A stretch of 64,000 bases of DNA, from assembly GCF_946886105.1 (NCBI RefSeq), contig NZ_CAMPHV010000023.1, positions 9,687-73,686 on the forward strand, read 5' to 3'. This document shows positions 6,970 through 47,435 of the stretch, piece by piece. Within the stretch, counting starts at the first letter, position 1, and each line of letters starts with the position of its first letter. The notes below the pieces were generated by a model that ran no database searches, had not been told where the DNA came from, and was given only the letters and a program-made list of their open reading frames with translations. The position numbers and the translations under genes are program-made. Source of the stretch: an uncultured Pseudomonas sp. (lineage in GTDB: Bacteria; Pseudomonadota; Gammaproteobacteria; Pseudomonadales; Pseudomonadaceae).

Positions 6970-8552
<1,583 letters not shown>

Positions 8553-8676
8553 AGGTGGCGGGCACGCGCGGAGCTGGCCGCGCGCGTGAAACGTGCGAAG
8601 TATAGCCAGCCCGGCGAAGAAGCCCAAGGCTTTCCGTCGCTCGGCTTAAGGTCGAGGGCGCAGAGCCCGGGTGCGT

Positions 8677-39867: not shown

Positions 39868-40122
39868 ATGCCGCACGTCGTCATCTACTCCAGCGACTGG
39901 TGCCCGTACTGCATCCGCGCCAAGCATCTGCTGACCAGCAAAGGCGTGGCGTTCGATGAAATCAAGGTCGACGGCAAGCCCGATGTGCGCGCCGAAATGA
40001 CCCGCAAAGCGCGGCAGACTTCAGTGCCGCAAATCTGGATCGGCGACCGCCATGTGGGCGGTTGCGACGATCTCTATGCCCTGGAGCGCGCCGGCAAGCT
40101 CGATGCGCTGCTCAAGGCTTAA
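39868..40122 (+). CDS. grxC: Glutaredoxin 3
   Basis: This small thiol-disulfide oxidoreductase uses glutathione. The 84-residue protein has the CPYC active site (SSDWCPYCIRAKHLL), the cis-proline in SVPQIWIGDRHVGGCDDLYALE, and family length. It starts 1 bp after the rhodanese stop, so the two are probably translated together. Confidence 0.96.
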   Translation: MPHVVIYSSDWCPYCIRAKHLLTSKGVAFDEIKVDGKPDVRAEMTRKARQTSVPQIWIGDRHVGGCDDLYALERAGKLDALLKA

Positions 40123-40156
40123 CCCACTCTCCACATTCGCTTAGGAAGGCTTTGTC

Positions 40157-40642
40157 ATGACCGAACAAACCAGCAACGGCGCCGCGCAAGACGAACAGAA
40201 CCCACAGTTCTCCCTGCAGCGCATCTATGTGCGCGACCTGTCGTTCGAAGCGCCGAAGAGCCCGGAAATCTTCCGTCAGGAGTGGTCGCCGAGCGTCGCC
40301 ATGGACCTCAATACCCGCCAGAAGAATCTCGATGGCGACTTCTATGAAGTGGTGCTGACGCTGTCCGTGACCGTGAAGAACGGCGAAGAAACCGCCTTTA
40401 TCGCCGAAGTGCAGCAGGCCGGCATCTTCCTGATCAAAGGTCTGGACGCCGCCTCCATGAGCCACACCCTGGGCGCCTTCTGCCCGAACATCCTATTCCC
40501 GTATGCCCGCGAAACCCTCGACAGCCTGGTGGTGCGCGGCTCGTTCCCGGCGCTGATGCTGGCCCCGGTGAACTTCGATGCGCTTTATGCGCAAGAGCTG
40601 CAGCGCATTCAGCAGGCCGCCGAAGCCGCGCCGACGCACTAA
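40157..40642 (+). CDS. secB: Protein-export chaperone SecB
   Basis: SecB keeps presecretory proteins unfolded and hands them to SecA. The 161-residue protein has the conserved [22 protein letters not shown] start and [36 protein letters not shown] end. It is the last gene of the rhodanese-grxC-secB group and is followed by a terminator and then by the accessory island. Confidence 0.97.
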
Positions 40643-40665
40643 GTCGCGACGCTGTGCAATTCAAT

Positions 40666-40693
40666 CAAAAAAGCGCCTGCGGGCGTTTTTTTT
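40666..40693 (+). terminator. Rho-independent terminator of secB
   Basis: AAAAAAGCGCC-TGC-GGGCGTTTTTTTT forms a clean stem with a strong U-run 24 bp past the secB stop. It marks the left edge of the accessory island. Confidence 0.93.
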
Positions 40694-40833
40694 ATTGGCT
40701 GGGGATTATTGCACTGTCCCGTTATACACGACTGACTAAAACTCCGACGGATATGCAGGCTACCTTGCTGAGGCAAACCATGGTCTGCCCCGTCCGGGAT
40801 CATATGACGATGGAGTTTATGGCGCGCTTAGTA

Positions 40834-40994
40834 CGCCAGCCAAGCTGGCGGTTGATAAAGGGAGAGAGCTACCCATGCATCCTTACCCCATAACTCGTTT
40901 CGGCGTTAAAACCCAAGGCAGGAGCGGTATGCGGTAATTTTGCACGTATGGATCTGCGCTGGGGGGGCAGGTGACTGCCATTCCTGCCGCGACC
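40834..40994 (+). mobile_element. Degenerate group II intron 3' end (maturase tail, domain V and VI)
   Basis: A 33-nt segment at 40922-40954 has the layout of group II intron domain V: a GAGCGGTA/TATGGATC proximal stem, a CG bulge and a TGCGG/TTGCA distal stem. Two proximal pairs are broken compared with the usual GAGCCGTA/TACGGTTC. It is followed by a domain VI-like hairpin (GGCAGG...CCTGCC). The reading frame ending at 40937 gives ...KTQGRSGMR-stop, the way intron maturases of this kind run into domain V. Only the last ~35 codons remain recognisable. It is dead as an intron. Confidence 0.65.
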
Positions 40995-40995
40995 C

Positions 40996-41216
40996 GCTGG
41001 TCAAGTGGCCTTGGCCGTCGTAGCCGTAGGTGGTGATATCAGAGACATCGGTGCGCGGGCCATCGGCGGTTTCGAGCAGGCCGAGGCTGTTGTAGGCATA
41101 GTTCCAGCTGCGTTCGGTGGCTTAGGCAGTAGGCCAGACGAAAGCGCTGGCCAAGTCGAATGCCAAGGCCAGCGAACGGCTGAGAGACAAGTTATTGAAG
41201 GGCGATTTCAGCAAAG
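40996..41216 (-). pseudogene. Broken 5' fragment of a second RHS downstream-module gene
   Basis: On the minus strand this fragment encodes a signal-peptide-like start ([16 protein letters not shown]), then an in-frame TAA. It continues as [22 protein letters not shown] and [17 protein letters not shown], closely matching residues ~25-65 of the intact gene at 42249-44963. The match stops at the group II intron end. It has no downstream part, so it is a relic of a duplicated or displaced copy. Confidence 0.85.
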
Positions 41217-41298
41217 TGACTCCCTCTCGGTAAAGTGCGATGGGTATCGCGAAGCTCAACCCATCAGGGCTGCCCCGCCCGTACGGCGGGAAAAATCT

Positions 41299-41457
41299 AT
41301 GACTCTGACCCCGTTGATCGGCTTCGGCCCCATCACCACCGAAATAGCCGAAGTGCCGCAGTTCTACTATGCGAAGGCGTATCACCAGCAGTACCTGGCG
41401 AAGAGTTCGGGGGAATATTGCGGGCTGGGTGGGACCGGAGTGTGTTTGCCGGATTGA
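41299..41457 (+). pseudogene. msrA: C-terminal fragment of peptide methionine sulfoxide reductase MsrA
   Basis: The last ~45 codons read [26 protein letters not shown] and [17 protein letters not shown], the conserved MsrA C-terminus with the YHQQYL block and the resolving-cysteine GGTGVC region. The catalytic GCFWG half is absent, and the sequence before it is unrelated, so the fragment cannot be an active enzyme. It is presumably carried in by rearrangement. Confidence 0.85.
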
Positions 41458-41719
41458 TTGGATAACGGCGCTGGGCGGAGAACAGACCGGTGCCCCCCAC
41501 CGTTTTGAGAGAGGGATGACGGCCACTTATGCGCTCAAGCCACTTAAGTGCTTGCAGGTTTCAGCTGTAGGCGCTGCACCAACTTGAACGCTGTGCCGGC
41601 CAAAGCTGACACCCTGAACCGAAAAGGTCTGAACACCCTGCTGGGAAAATTGATGCAGTAGAGCTGTAGGACGAAGATTGGCCCCGCCGCGGGCAGGACC
41701 TTCATCTCATTGTTACTTT

Positions 41720-42241
41720 TTAAGATGCTATATAGATGAGCTCAATGATTTCCCCGGGGGTAATTGTTTTTTTCATCCACTGCTCGCATTCCGAGTTCTG
41801 AGATAGGGTCCCAACCGAGAACAAGGGAGACTGTTCTTTGTTTGATATCCCGGCCTCGTAGAAACAGGTTATGTCTGACCCATTGCGCGCTCTGATTATA
41901 AAGTTGCTTTCTTTTGTGGCTATGTGAAGCTGCTGGCTTTCATAGCCCTCTGGGTTAAGACTTGGGTGAAGGCGTAGTAATTTCTCGATCTCATCTTGGT
42001 TGAAGCGTCGCGGTGTTGAGTCGCCAGCATAGTGACCTATTTGGATGTGGTCGCCGCTTGGAATAGTCGCCTTGGCAATGATGGTTGAACTGCGCGAGAT
42101 TATGTCTCTGGCTTGTGCGATAAGGTGTAAAGTTCTTTTGTTTTCTGACTGCGAGATGATCAACTCAAAAGCCTCGTTGGCCACTGTGTCATGGCTGAAC
42201 AGCTCTTTGCCATTTACATAAAGACTTACTTGTGGATGCAT
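41720..42241 (-). CDS. Orphan protein directly downstream of the RHS tip; candidate immunity or accessory protein
   Basis: This 173-residue protein of no recognised family has no signal peptide or membrane segment. It starts at MHPQVSLYVNGKELF with a GAGGA site, 7 bp past the RHS stop in the same direction. It looks beta-rich at the start and has visibly lower GC than the msh or housekeeping genes, like the adjacent RHS tip. Position is the only argument for an immunity role. If the toxin acts in the periplasm, a cytoplasmic immunity protein would be unexpected, so another role is possible. Confidence 0.6.
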   Translation of the reverse strand: MHPQVSLYVNGKELFSHDTVANEAFELIISQSENKRTLHLIAQARDIISRSSTIIAKATIPSGDHIQIGHYAGDSTPRRFNQDEIEKLLRLHPSLNPEGYESQQLHIATKESNFIIRARNGSDITCFYEAGISNKEQSPLFSVGTLSQNSECEQWMKKTITPGEIIELIYIAS

Positions 42242-42248
42242 ATCTTCC

Positions 42249-44963
42249 TCAGAAGAGAATTGGTCTAATTGGCGGCACTTTGTAGTTTGGGCATCGCTGA
42301 TTATGGATGCTTGCTTTCTGATTGAATCGTGTAATCGCGCTTTGTGCGGCAGCCACGTCTTGTTCACTGGCTGATAGGCCGTAGAGTTCAAGGATAAATG
42401 CCCTTGTGGCAAGCAAACTTTTCTGAGCTACGTAGCAACCATCGTCTCCATTGGGATCGTCTTTCGAGCACTGCCCTGTAGGCTGTTTCGGCGGGGGGAA
42501 TAATGGTACGACGTTGGATTCTTGGCCAATGGATGGGTAGTAAGCACTAATCGGGGTAATTAGGCCGCCCATACCAGGCATCACCCCGACTCCTCGAACT
42601 CCTAGCGGCTGCTGTGCAGTTCTAGCAAATAGCCCATCGGGGTCCGAAGACCTTAAAGGATTTCCCTCTACATACCCGTAGGTATTCAGCCCGCCATTGA
42701 GCCCAATCGGATCGCTTTCGACATACCGCCCCGTCTCGGGGTCGTAATCGCGGAAGTAGTTGTAGTGCAGCCCGCTCTCCTGGTCGAAGTATTGCCCCGG
42801 GAAGCGCAGGTTCAGCGTCAGGCTACCGCTGGCCGGGCCTACGCCGAAGGCGTCGGATTGCCATTGCCAGACCGTCTGCTGAGTTTGGTTGGTGGCCAGG
42901 CGCGGGGTGTTGAGGTGGTCGCTGTGCAGGTAGAACGGGGTGGTGCTGGAGATGGCGCCGGTGGTGCTGTACTGAACGCTGATACCACCCAGGGGCATGT
43001 TGTCGAGCCAGATGTAGTACTGGCTGCGGAAGGGAGCCCCCGAGAAGAACTGGCTTTCGCCGAGCAGTTGGCCGTCCGGGCCATAGAGGAAGGTGGTGGT
43101 GCTCTGCCCGCTGATCTTGTGGGTACGCTGACCGAGGGCGTTGTAGCGGAACTCCGCTACGGTGGCGTCGAAGAACTTGACGCTGCTTAGGCGGTTCTGG
43201 GCGTCGTAGATCAGTTTGCGGCTGACCCTATCCTGGGTCAGATTGCCGACGGCATCGCTGGTGACCGCTTGCGCGTCGATCTGGGTCAGGCGGTTGCTGT
43301 CGGCGGCGTATTGGTAGGTTTGCGGGCGGCCTGGCTGGGGCTGGCCGTTGACGACTCGGGTGATGGTTCTGCCGGTGCGGTTGCCCACGGCGTCGTAGCT
43401 GTAGGTCTGTTCAAGGTCGGCCTTCTGCTCGGCGGTCAGGCGGTCGAGGGCGTCGTAGCTGTAGTTGAGGTCGCCGAGCAGGCTGCTGTTCAACGTTTCG
43501 ATGTTGCTGTTGGCGTCATAGCCGTACGTGCTGTTCCAGCCGGCCACGCTTTGTTCGCTCAGGCGGTAGTCCTGATCGTAGCTGCGGCTCAGACTGACAC
43601 CGTTGGCCCAGGTCAGGCTCTTCAGCGGACCGAACGGCAAGTAGCTAAGGTTGCTGGCGAAGGCGCTGGGTTGGCCGTCGCCGACCTGCAATTGCACCTG
43701 ACTGACCTGGCCGGCGGCATTACGGACGTAGTGGATGCTGAAGCCTAGCGGGTAGTCGATACGACTCAGCTGGTTGGCGCCGTCATAGGCGTAACCGAGG
43801 CGGTCGTACTGATCCACACCATTTACCGCCACCGAGCGCAGCTGCTCGGTGAGATTGCCGCGCGCATCGTAGTGGTAGCCGAGCACGCCGCTGGCATCCT
43901 GGACCGCGGTCAAGCGGCCGATGCCTTTGTTGCCGTCGGCGGTCATGTCGTAGTGGTACTGCACATTCAGCGCCGGGTTGACCGGGTATTGGCGGCCAGT
44001 CAGGCGGTTGAGAGCATCGTAGGTGTAGGTGGTGACCACGCCACGGGCATCGGTCTTACTGATGACGTTGCCGGCGGCATCGTGGCTGAAGGTGGTGGTG
44101 CCGCTGTCCGGGCTGGTCTGCTGGAGCAGGTTGCCCAGGCCGTCGTACTGGTAGCCCGTGGTGACGCCGCGCGGGTCTTTGACCTGGGTCAGGTTGTCCT
44201 GGGCGTCGTAGGCCAGGGCGGTGACGCCATTCAGGGGGTCGGTGTTGCTGACCAGACGATCCAGGGCGTCGTAGGCCTGGGCGTGACTGTGCTGCTTGGG
44301 GTTGGTGGTTTGCGTCGGGTTGTCGTTGAGGTCGTAGCCGTACTGGCTGGTCTGGCCCTGCGCGCCTATCGAACGTAACAGGCGGCCAAGTTCGTCGTAG
44401 ACCCAGGTTTGCTGCTGAGTGAGGTTGCTGGAGGCATCCTTGATCCGCTGGGCGGTGCGGTTGCCCATGGCATCGAGGCTGAACTCGATGCTCTCGCCGA
44501 GGTTGTTGCTGATCGTGGTCAGACGGCGGGCGCCATCCCAGGTGTACTCAAGCCAACTGCCATCGCCACGGGTGACCTTGACGATCTGGCCGATGGCGTC
44601 GTGCTCGAAGCTGGTGGTGCTGCCGGCCGTGCTGACCGAGGCCAGCCAGCCTTGCACCGTGTAGGTCAGACTCGTACTGACGCCGTTGGCGTCGACCAGG
44701 TTTTGTGGGTTGCCGTAGTTGTCGAAGTTGGACAGCTGGGTGACATGGCCGAGGGCGTTGGTGACGCTAGTCAGGTGGCCCTGGGCGTCGTAGCCATAGG
44801 TGGTGACGTCCTGCACATCGGTGCGCGGGCCGTCGGCCATTTCGATCAGGCCGAGACTGTTATAGGTGTAGCTCCAGTTGCGCTCGGTGGCTTCTACGCT
44901 GGAGATGCCCAGCGCTGTCGCCAAGGCAAGCGAGAGTAGGCTTGCGCGATGCAAAGTTTTCAT
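42249..44963 (-). CDS. RHS protein, downstream half with own signal peptide, RHS core and variable tip
   Basis: This 904-residue exported protein begins with a Sec signal peptide (MKTLHRASLLSLALATALGISSVEA). YD repeats fill residues ~30-650 (YGYDAQGHLTSV, YQYDGLGNLLQQ, YTYDALNRLTGR). The RHS core follows (LHYNYFRDYDPETGRYVESDPIGLNGGLNTYGYVEGNP) and closes at PLRSSDPDGL, the usual self-cleavage boundary. The last 126 residues form a low-GC tip with four cysteines and no recognised toxin motif. An AGAAGGAA site lies 7 nt before ATG 44963, only 19 nt past the upstream RHS stop. No DUF6531 domain is present; it is in the upstream gene. Confidence 0.9.
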   Translation of the reverse strand: MKTLHRASLLSLALATALGISSVEATERNWSYTYNSLGLIEMADGPRTDVQDVTTYGYDAQGHLTSVTNALGHVTQLSNFDNYGNPQNLVDANGVSTSLTYTVQGWLASVSTAGSTTSFEHDAIGQIVKVTRGDGSWLEYTWDGARRLTTISNNLGESIEFSLDAMGNRTAQRIKDASSNLTQQQTWVYDELGRLLRSIGAQGQTSQYGYDLNDNPTQTTNPKQHSHAQAYDALDRLVSNTDPLNGVTALAYDAQDNLTQVKDPRGVTTGYQYDGLGNLLQQTSPDSGTTTFSHDAAGNVISKTDARGVVTTYTYDALNRLTGRQYPVNPALNVQYHYDMTADGNKGIGRLTAVQDASGVLGYHYDARGNLTEQLRSVAVNGVDQYDRLGYAYDGANQLSRIDYPLGFSIHYVRNAAGQVSQVQLQVGDGQPSAFASNLSYLPFGPLKSLTWANGVSLSRSYDQDYRLSEQSVAGWNSTYGYDANSNIETLNSSLLGDLNYSYDALDRLTAEQKADLEQTYSYDAVGNRTGRTITRVVNGQPQPGRPQTYQYAADSNRLTQIDAQAVTSDAVGNLTQDRVSRKLIYDAQNRLSSVKFFDATVAEFRYNALGQRTHKISGQSTTTFLYGPDGQLLGESQFFSGAPFRSQYYIWLDNMPLGGISVQYSTTGAISSTTPFYLHSDHLNTPRLATNQTQQTVWQWQSDAFGVGPASGSLTLNLRFPGQYFDQESGLHYNYFRDYDPETGRYVESDPIGLNGGLNTYGYVEGNPLRSSDPDGLFARTAQQPLGVRGVGVMPGMGGLITPISAYYPSIGQESNVVPLFPPPKQPTGQCSKDDPNGDDGCYVAQKSLLATRAFILELYGLSASEQDVAAAQSAITRFNQKASIHNQRCPNYKVPPIRPILF

Positions 44964-44982
44964 CGGTCAGTTCCTTCTGAAA

Positions 44983-46626
44983 TTAACGCTCAGTGATGGT
45001 CTGGCTGAGCTGGTTGCCTTGGGCGTCGTAATCGAACTGCAGCACTCGCTTGGGTTCGGTGATGGTCAGCGGTCGGAACAGCGTGGGATGCCAATCGGTG
45101 GTGACGGTGCGGGCTTGCGGGGTGCCTGAAGCTTCGGTACGGGAAATCTCCAGGCCACGGGTGTTGTAGTCGTAGCTGGTGACGTAGCCCTTATTGTCCG
45201 TTTTGGTCTTGATCAAGCCGCGAGGGTCATAAGTAAAGGTCGAGTTGCTGCTTGGGCAGTTAGGCGATGCAGCACCGGCCAAGGAAGTGATGCGCTTGGC
45301 GCCGGCAATGGTCTGGAAGGTATAAGTGGATTTTTTGCCCAATGGATTTGTCAGGGTGGTGGAGTTGCCGTTGTAAGCGAACAGATACTTCTCGTTGCCA
45401 CCATTCAACTCGCTTTTAGTTGCCCTGCCTTGCGCGTCAAACGCCCAGGTGACATAGCGCACGCCACGCTCATCGGTAATCCCGGTCAGCCAGCCGCCTT
45501 CGCGCGCATCTTCGTAATGATAGCTGCGCGAGTGGCTTTGCCCCCCTTGCGTCCGGGTAACCTTGGTGAGACGGCTTGATGTGCTGTAAGTGAAGGTGAC
45601 TTGCAGCGAGCCGACAGTGAGCCCCATGAGACGTTTGTTGCTATTGAGGGTGAGCGTCAGGGCATTGCCCAACGAGTCGGTTACTTCGATCTGATTGGCA
45701 CTGTAGATAAGATTCTCATAAGCGCCGTTGCCACGATCGATCCGGGTCAATTGCCCGAGAGTATCGAAGTGCAGATGTTCATTCTGCGGAGAATCATAGC
45801 GCCAGCCAGTGGCGACTTTTTCCATGCGACCAAGCTCTTTGGGAGATGCAGTAACAGTACCGCCAGACACGCTGAATAGGCTTTCACGCCCATCGGCGTC
45901 GCTCAACAGAACGCGTGTGGGAGATATTTTCAAATGGGCCGAATAGCTATGGGTCCAGTTGGCCGTTTTACTGTTGTAGTAGCGGGCGAAGTGCATGCCA
46001 CTGCCTTGCTGACCAGGGTAATCGACTTCAGTTTGAAAACTATTGCCATAAGCCAAGTTGACCGGGTCGCCTGCCGCCTTGCTCGGCGCACCAGCACTCG
46101 CTAGCACAGGAGTTGCCGATTGAACTGGGCACGCCCCAGGTAAATCGGGCGCGCCTAGATCGGGAACATCGGGACACAGCAGCTCCACCGGGCGGTCGTA
46201 AAAAACCGGGCCGGCGAATTGGTTGTAATAGGTTTGATTGAACGTTAGGTAATTACTGGCCGCTACGCCATCGACGACACCTTTAAAATTGTCGTGATAG
46301 ATCACCAAGTGGGTCGCGCAGGTGTTCGGAAAATAGCGCCGCATATTGGGGTTGGCTTGTTTGACGGTCGCCAGCATCTGCGCTGGCGTGTACCAAGCGC
46401 TGCTCTCCAGCCACTTGATCACTTTACCGCTGGAACATTGCAGTCCCGCTATTTTATAGAGGTACTGCCCTTGCCCATTCAGGCTATTGGGCTCGGCATA
46501 CGCTTCGGTGCCAAAGTAACTGATGCCGCCATTGGTGCTGCAGTTTGCGGCGGAAAAGGCCCCTGGAGCGAAGGTACAGGCTGAAATAATGAGGGCGAGG
46601 CTGAGCCTACGAGAGTAACGATCCAT
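44983..46626 (-). CDS. RHS protein, upstream half with signal peptide, DUF6531 and first YD repeats
   Basis: This 547-residue exported protein has a signal peptide (MDRYSRRLSLALIISACTFAPGAFSA). A cysteine-containing N-terminal domain (~27-165) follows, which I do not recognise. Then comes a DUF6531-type start of the RHS shell (GDPVNLAYGNSFQTEVDYPG, MHFARYYNS) and YD repeats to the end (FTYDPRGLIKTKTDNKGY, FDYDAQGNQLSQTITER). It stops exactly where the next gene resumes with TERNWSYTYNSLG, so the two together make one ordinary RHS chain. There is no PAAR domain, VgrG or other type VI component nearby. Confidence 0.9.
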   Translation of the reverse strand: MDRYSRRLSLALIISACTFAPGAFSAANCSTNGGISYFGTEAYAEPNSLNGQGQYLYKIAGLQCSSGKVIKWLESSAWYTPAQMLATVKQANPNMRRYFPNTCATHLVIYHDNFKGVVDGVAASNYLTFNQTYYNQFAGPVFYDRPVELLCPDVPDLGAPDLPGACPVQSATPVLASAGAPSKAAGDPVNLAYGNSFQTEVDYPGQQGSGMHFARYYNSKTANWTHSYSAHLKISPTRVLLSDADGRESLFSVSGGTVTASPKELGRMEKVATGWRYDSPQNEHLHFDTLGQLTRIDRGNGAYENLIYSANQIEVTDSLGNALTLTLNSNKRLMGLTVGSLQVTFTYSTSSRLTKVTRTQGGQSHSRSYHYEDAREGGWLTGITDERGVRYVTWAFDAQGRATKSELNGGNEKYLFAYNGNSTTLTNPLGKKSTYTFQTIAGAKRITSLAGAASPNCPSSNSTFTYDPRGLIKTKTDNKGYVTSYDYNTRGLEISRTEASGTPQARTVTTDWHPTLFRPLTITEPKRVLQFDYDAQGNQLSQTITER

Positions 46627-46867
46627 GTTATGAATCCTGCCTTGGATGAAGAGTCGGCGCGTAGCCTAGTGCAAAGCGGAAAGATTGCCACTGGCCAAGT
46701 GAGCGCAAGTGCTCAGAATGAACAAATTTCCGGGAAATTAAGGAGCAGTTCTGCCTTACGGGCGCAGGCAGCCGCCTGAGTCCGAGAGGCCCTGTTGGGC
46801 TTCGTCGCTACGTTCTTCAGGCTGCGCTCCCCGCCCCAACCATGCTGCGTCCAACCCAGCCAGCGCC

Positions 46868-47329
46868 TTAATCCATGGCAAAGCCTTGCTGGCGCCAGGC
46901 CTCGAAGACCACCACGGCCACGGCATTGGACAGGTTCAGGCTGCGGCTTTCCGGACGCATGGGCAGGCGCAGGCGCTGTTGGTCGGGAATTTGCGCGAGC
47001 AAATCGGCCGGCAAGCCGCGACTTTCTGGGCCGAACAGCAGCAAATCGCCACGGCGGAACTGCATCTGGGCATAGCCGTTACTGGCTTTTGTGGTAAATG
47101 CCAATATCCTGTCACTAGCGGTATTTGTGATACATTCCGCCAAAGAATGATGGCGTTTTAATGTCGCGTACTCGTGATAATCCAGCCCGGCGCGGCGTAA
47201 GCGTTTGTCGTCCAGCTCGAAGCCCAGGGGCTCGATCAGGTGCAGCTGACAGCCGGTATTGGCGCATAAGCGAATGATATTGCCAGTGTTCGGTGGAATT
47301 TCTGGCTGAAACAGAACGACATGAAACAT
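46868..47329 (-). CDS. trmL: tRNA (cytidine(34)-2'-O)-methyltransferase TrmL
   Basis: This SPOUT-class enzyme methylates the wobble base of some leucine tRNAs. The 153-residue protein has the SPOUT start FHVVLFQPEIPPNTGNIIRLCANTGCQLHLIEPLGF and the knot segment LLLFGPESRGLPADLL with RLPMRPESRSLNLSNAVAVVVFEAWRQ. About 100 bp in the middle (near 47070-47165) is much more AT-rich than the rest, suggesting a mosaic gene. It diverges from the msh locus. Confidence 0.95.
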   Translation of the reverse strand: MFHVVLFQPEIPPNTGNIIRLCANTGCQLHLIEPLGFELDDKRLRRAGLDYHEYATLKRHHSLAECITNTASDRILAFTTKASNGYAQMQFRRGDLLLFGPESRGLPADLLAQIPDQQRLRLPMRPESRSLNLSNAVAVVVFEAWRQQGFAMD

Positions 47330-47435
47330 TGATCGAGCTCAGGGAGAAGGCCAAGGGATACAGTCTACAGTGTGCCGCCGTTTGTCGACCGTCGCCATGG
47401 CGACGGATGAAGTGGAATCCGGGTGACACAGGGGA

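Follow-up and report, generated by a model that had tools for sequence, protein, structure and literature searches.

RHS shells have been seen as closed chambers in which one chain folds around its own toxin. Sec-exported RHS/YD toxins (the WapA type and Xanthomonas BcnA) consist of a YD shell, an RHS core and a variable tip, with a small ORF behind the gene, and these toxins are single chains (1398 aa for BcnA). The type VI secretion system (T6SS) Rhs effectors, such as Tse5, RhsA of P. protegens and Tre23, each consist of one cytoplasmic chain and have PAAR or VgrG partners. Bacterial teneurin-like proteins are surface or secreted YD shells with a variable toxic C terminus (PMC13018210). They are also single chains, with FN-plug and NHL domains. 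A shell encoded by two genes is found in the TcB/TcC cocoon, in which the second chain carries the core and a variable end and the front chain has SpvB and a propeller. In the Photorhabdus Tc system, the C part crosses the inner membrane, and TcdB1, which is reported to have no leader for Sec, is said to do so only with the help of its C partner (PMC3789776).

We analyzed a stretch of 64,000 nucleotides from an uncultured Pseudomonas sp., referred to here as the window. An earlier note on this DNA had described an RHS shell encoded by two adjacent genes, of 547 and 904 residues, separated by 19 nt. Both ORFs, which we call A and B, proved to be intact, and the features of the locus are listed in Table 1. 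According to Pfam, YD/RHS repeats are present in both proteins; the head of A, about 160 residues long, matched no family. B gave ten RHS-repeat matches (PF05593) and a PF03527 match under its cut-off, and the RHS-associated core of TIGR03696 was found in it with 82.4 bits (cut-off, 32.5). Residues D751 and D774 of this core were invariant in alignment A2. A ended with ...QLSQTITER, and B opened with MKTLHRASLLSLALATALGISSVEA, followed by TERNWSYTYNSLG. Eight neighboring ORFs were scanned; seven matched SecB, glutaredoxin, rhodanese, SpoU methylase, a GreA/GreB-type protein, a solute-binding protein and a YgjP-like protein, and one had no match. As the earlier note had stated, no PAAR, VgrG or Tc component was found in A, B, the ORF behind B or these eight neighbors, which is the extent of the check. 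An Rfam scan of positions 39900 to 47400 gave no match.

We propose that A and B are probably halves of a single RHS polymorphic toxin that is exported by Sec and in which the two chains form one shell. Several features of the sequence point to this: the split is conserved, B is initiated separately, both starts resemble signal peptides, the pair is exactly continuous with one-chain relatives, both genes are under purifying selection and the tip varies. No description of a two-chain exported RHS shell, or of arrays of front chains, was found in the open-access papers searched. Since such pairs are annotated gene by gene in public databases, the genes are known, and it is their arrangement that seems undescribed.

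Table 1. Features of the A-B locus (positions are those of the window)
Feature	Position	Strand	Evidence
Gene A (547 aa), front part of the RHS shell	44983..46626	-	Adjoining full-length A-B pair in 30/37 loci
Signal peptide of A, MDRYSRRLSLALIISACTFAPGAFSA, cleavage site placed by eye	46549..46626	-	In-house signal-peptide rule
Head of A, variable N-terminal region, N-terminal to DUF6531	46072..46548	-	Between-locus mean identity 27%; no Pfam match
DUF6531 (PF20148), residues 186-251 of A	45874..46071	-	Pfam, E 1.1e-10
YD repeats of A, to the conserved chain end	44986..45873	-	RHS-repeat matches; ends of A homologues
Spacer of 19 nt, with Shine-Dalgarno-like AGAAGGAACTGA at 44967-44978	44964..44982	-	Sequence; motif conserved in loci
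Gene B, remaining RHS shell, core and tip, 904 aa	42249..44963	-	ORF and domain matches
Signal peptide of B, MKTLHRASLLSLALATALGISSVEA	44889..44963	-	In-house signal-peptide rule
YD-repeat shell part of B, residues 26-704	42852..44888	-	RHS-repeat matches
RHS-associated core, two DPxGL motifs (residues 751 and 774)	42630..42851	-	TIGR03696 at 705-778
Variable tip of B, 126 aa, presumed toxin	42252..42629	-	No family match
ORF of 173 aa, 7 nt 3' of B, presumed immunity gene	41720..42241	-	Position and start
Relic of a second B gene (decayed 5' part)	40996..41193	-	Similarity to B of L045 and of the window

The split was examined in 37 loci from Pseudomonas and close relatives, which were gathered through matches to A and are therefore biased toward A-like genes. 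Adjoining full-length A-B pairs were present in 30 loci and continuous genes in 2 (L062 and L068), and 5 loci were broken or cut off (L057, L061, L066, L067 and L071). Among the best 120 of 7846 B homologues, 116 started at the split point, with the first conserved motif 26 to 47 residues from the start, 3 were continuous and 1 was a fragment. The end of A was similarly fixed: among the best 120 of 348 A homologues, the chain ended 15 residues past the last YDxxG in 111 and 17 residues past it in 6. Three full-length relatives in species genomes were all split, with a signal-peptide-like start of B's own. Of the 398 genomes of the genus, at least 29 had A, at least 30 had B and at least 28 had both, these counts being lower bounds because two to three candidates were scored per genome. 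The three other genomes with a match to A or B had a continuous gene (G133), a B fragment in a 507-aa frame (G157) or a B with one internal TAG (G359).

A search across the order returned 62 rows, and in 22 of these the frame was longer than 1150 aa. Twenty stretches taken from these rows contained 12 further full-length pairs, 3 pairs with a truncated B, 1 three-gene version, 1 A pair at the end of a contig and 3 A genes alone; they were picked mostly from frames below 1150 aa and thus give no ratio of split to continuous genes. The split is not specific to this strain: it is widespread in Pseudomonas, and further genera or families within the order have it too. In the three-gene version (L103, 3359-10403), A (617 aa) is followed by a B that ends at profile position 566 (608 aa) and, 18 nt on, by a third ORF of 1094 aa. 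The third ORF opens with a hydrophobic start, then has other sequence for about 780 residues and ends with a tip, preceded by an RHS core that picks up at profile position 569. This is a second split point. This locus and the three A genes that had no B within the stretch read (L096, L107 and L109) depart from the simple two-gene rule. A Pseudomonas-like pair about 70% identical to that of the window was found on a contig filed as an alphaproteobacterial metagenome-assembled genome (MAG; L001), which is possibly misbinned. B-type proteins also occur in P. aeruginosa (P0112 and P0111), and P0112 represents 751 member sequences.

The earlier note had also pointed to a strong ribosome-binding site before B and to a signal peptide on each chain. 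In the window, AGAAGGAACTGA lies in the spacer 3 nt 5' of the ATG of B. The pattern AGAAGGAHCTGA occurred once in the 64 kb of the window, before B, and in 0 of 100 shuffles; it was found upstream of B in 22 of the 30 locus pairs, and a Shine-Dalgarno-like site of the AAGGA, AGGA, GGAG or AAGGT type preceded a B start in all 30. When the start behind this site was used, the gap from A to B was 15 to 28 nt in 28 of the 30 loci, and 39 and 108 nt in the remaining two. An apparent 4-nt overlap of A and B in six loci was an artefact of taking the longest ORF, with gaps of 17 or 26 nt once the start behind the Shine-Dalgarno site was taken. Signal peptides were scored by an in-house rule. Both window proteins passed. 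Of the split B homologues, 105 of 116 passed, and of the B genes in the loci, 28 of 30 did; among controls, 5 of 1160 random internal pieces of B and 34 of 189 neighboring ORFs passed, some of the latter being truly exported. For A, 57 of 120 homologues and 30 of 44 locus genes passed. This weaker score reflects a mixture of fragments, uncertain start codons and real misses, with truncation and start choice accounting for only part of it. Taken together, the start signal and the signal-peptide-like start support separate initiation of B as a chain of its own.

To place A and B against one-chain relatives, we built profiles from the body of B and from the 370 residues at the end of A and mapped them onto continuous relatives. 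In the 85 relatives with usable ends, the two regions followed each other in order, with a linker of 0 residues in 2, 6 to 14 residues in 64 and 20 to 63 residues in 19. B thus resumes where A stops, as proposed earlier, and A and B correspond to successive parts of a single RHS shell. Three continuous proteins (P0012, P0020 and P0022) were up to about 80% identical to B. The end of A runs into the start of B in P0012 and P0020, leaving no space for a signal peptide, and P0022 has an ordinary linker. A tree was built from 222 B bodies and rooted at the midpoint. One clade of 150 proteins contained all 146 split ones (support, 0.75; 0.99 for a subclade of 143). P0012, P0020 and P0022 were nested among the split proteins, and L068 was near the base on a long branch. 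The split or continuous state changed 5 times on this tree, versus at least 56 times with shuffled labels; the split and continuous proteins were drawn mainly from different queries. The simplest reading is that the split arose once, with some later fusions or chimeras; the weak basal support and the different sources of the two groups are reservations on this reading. Both genes are under purifying selection, with dN/dS values of 0.09 to 0.35 for A and 0.06 to 0.26 for B in five pairs. The distances of A and B were correlated with an r of 0.57 (best of 2000 permutations, 0.40), a moderate value that is partly expected of any two linked genes.

These results bear on two other readings of the pair. 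One is that the split is an isolated break, a frameshift or a pseudogene of one continuous gene, as the continuous relatives P0012, P0020, P0022, L062 and L068 might suggest. This has next to no probability: the same split was found in 30 of 37 loci and in 116 of the best 120 of 7846 homologues, the start signal is conserved and both genes are under purifying selection, which together rule out a break of this kind. The earlier note had already argued against a simple frameshift, and its concern that only this strain might be split was answered by the loci and homologues. The other reading is that B is a complete toxin by itself and that A is a separate exported protein (an adhesin, a decoy or an ancestral remnant) outside the shell of B. 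B does contain ten RHS-repeat matches, a core and a tip; moreover, B fragments without A occurred in G157 and G359, and A without B occurred in L096 and L107. However, the loci examined contained no intact full-length B without an adjoining A, the end of A meets the beginning of B in the 85 continuous relatives, continuous versions are nested among split ones, and A is under purifying selection. We therefore consider a self-sufficient B unlikely, and favor one shell built from A and B.

By sequence, the closest solved shells were those of the T6SS Rhs effectors, together with 8qja and 8h8a. A-B differs from these effectors in having signal peptides, and no PAAR or other T6SS loading domain was found in A or B with Pfam. 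The match of A-B to 9pt5 and 9ifo was limited to the shell, and A has neither the FN-plug nor the NHL of the teneurin-like proteins (Pfam). With the Sec-exported toxins of the WapA and BcnA type, A-B shares the YD shell, the RHS core, the variable tip and the small ORF behind, but it has two chains with a signal peptide each. On these features, A-B appears to belong to the RHS polymorphic toxins as a two-gene form; we take a single chain to be their usual state and not a defining feature. RhsT of P. aeruginosa (PAGI-9) could be related to A-B.

The arrangement also recalls the TcB/TcC cocoon, since in both a shell is divided into a front part and a part with the core and a variable end, and the B profile matched the core of TcC chains in the PDB. 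A and B might accordingly correspond to TcB and TcC, with the injector subunit of a Tc-type complex encoded elsewhere; no TcA was found among the eight neighboring ORFs scanned. Several observations make this reading very improbable. A had no SpvB or propeller match in Pfam at E values up to 0.1. RHS effectors and bacterial teneurins matched far better than Tc proteins (best E value for B, 5.8e-75, versus 4.6e-18 for a Tc chain), and no Tc chain was among the matches of A at E values up to 0.01. Finally, A has its own signal peptide, whereas TcdB1 is described without a Sec leader (PMC3789776).

The two signal peptides would account for passage across the inner membrane, and we compared genomes for systems that might serve beyond it. 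A VgrG match was absent from 4 of 27 A-B genomes (one of them, G001, being a MAG contig set) and from 3 of 29 others; thus, a T6SS is unnecessary for keeping A-B. The type II secretin GspD scored over the cut-off in 25 of 27 A-B genomes, G240 being an A-B genome without it, and in 24 of 29 others, so its presence does not discriminate between the groups. Neither T6SS nor type II secretion could thus be identified as the route from these presence patterns. The Xanthomonas RHS bacteriocin BcnA, a single chain, depends on type II secretion for its activity and is reported to be exported without T6SS parts (PMC7259588). A type II route is therefore possible for A-B.

The tip of B matched no family. 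The 173-aa ORF behind B had no Pfam match and no match in the 398 genomes, in a search run without a positive control. The presumed roles of toxin and immunity protein therefore rest on position. The tip was 95% identical to that of P0004 (120/126 residues), while the body segments of the two proteins were 56 to 75% identical; against five other B relatives, the identity of the tip was 16 to 27%. Tips thus move independently of the body, in line with the exchangeable downstream module proposed in the earlier note. Other B proteins end in tips of known toxin families, namely, Ntox34 (P0112) and PF15657, named as a polymorphic toxin of the HNH/endonuclease VII fold (P0043 and P0057). An alternative is that the shell is as described but serves adhesion, biofilm formation or surface display, with a tip that is no toxin. 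It would fit the lack of any family match for the tip and for the ORF behind B, and the lack of a match for this ORF in the 398 genomes. We regard it as having a small probability, given the Ntox34 and PF15657 tips of other B proteins, the exchange of the tip apart from the body and an RHS core that keeps both DPxGL motifs.

Exchange may also involve more than the tip. P0002 and B of the window were identical at 434 of 435 residues over positions 26 to 460; their signal peptides shared 16 of 23 aligned residues, and the later body and the tip differed. This pattern suggests that the sequence is broken at the junction of A and B, where the signal peptide ends. Behind the 173-aa ORF lies a relic that is 67% identical to residues 1 to 66 of B of L045, and its DNA is 83% identical (107/129 nt) to B of the window. 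On the opposite strand, the relic is overlapped by a 3' fragment of msrA, encoding peptide methionine sulfoxide reductase (PF01625; 41005-41457, plus strand). Stubs of the 5' end of B were also found between A genes in L066 (13362-13586, minus strand; 74 aa), L067 (2298-2543, plus strand; 81 aa) and L092 (114 aa). Such stubs suggest that B may be inserted or replaced at its 5' end and, together with the break seen in P0002, that the whole of B may be the exchanged unit. In L047, an orphan piece with the end of an RHS core and another tip (219 aa) lies 479 nt behind B, as is known at other Rhs loci.

More than one A gene, or piece of one, stood in tandem in 11 of the 57 loci examined (L044, L048, L049, L066, L067, L071, L080, L092, L094, L098 and L108). 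Several loci had two to four A genes ahead of one B, with four in L044 and L098. L055 had an extra A gene 764 nt behind B (7100-8611, minus strand). We compared 19 pairs of A genes from nine loci, including L055 with its second A behind B, and used 150 random between-locus pairs as a control. Mean identity within loci rose from 28% for the head to 53% for the DUF6531 half and 76% for the B-facing half; the corresponding between-locus values were 27, 32 and 51%. In 7 of the 9 loci, the DUF6531 half was 29 to 46% identical, versus 55 to 78% for the B-facing half. This is the pattern expected if several front chains must fit one B, and recombination in the conserved half would be expected to give the same. 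We tentatively suggest, as a possibility well short of a firm expectation, that an exported B forms a chamber with its toxin that can be closed by any of several exported A chains with different heads (A1, A2 and so on, from one operon), and that B with its tip is swapped as a cassette. We think that the A arrays are more surprising than the split itself.

In the mechanism that we propose, both chains would come from one operon, A and B each having a separate start signal. Each chain would pass through the inner membrane on its own, by means of its signal peptide. Once in the periplasm or beyond it, the two would meet along an edge between YD repeats and complete a single beta-spiral shell. 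The RHS core of B would cut off the C-terminal tip, which would be kept in the shell until its delivery to a neighboring cell, presumably after an outer-membrane step of export, and would be toxic there; the 173-aa ORF behind B would protect the producer. If this is true, a second chain can close an RHS chamber in trans, and outside the cytoplasm. The pair would then be a natural test system for toxin entry into the shell, for closure after the self-cut of the core and for head exchange by assembly. Many of the pairs that carry the annotations "DUF6531 domain-containing protein" and "RHS repeat-associated core protein" would also be expected to be one machine. If the combinatorial shell suggested by the A arrays is true as well, one toxin could get different anchors or docking parts through assembly after export.
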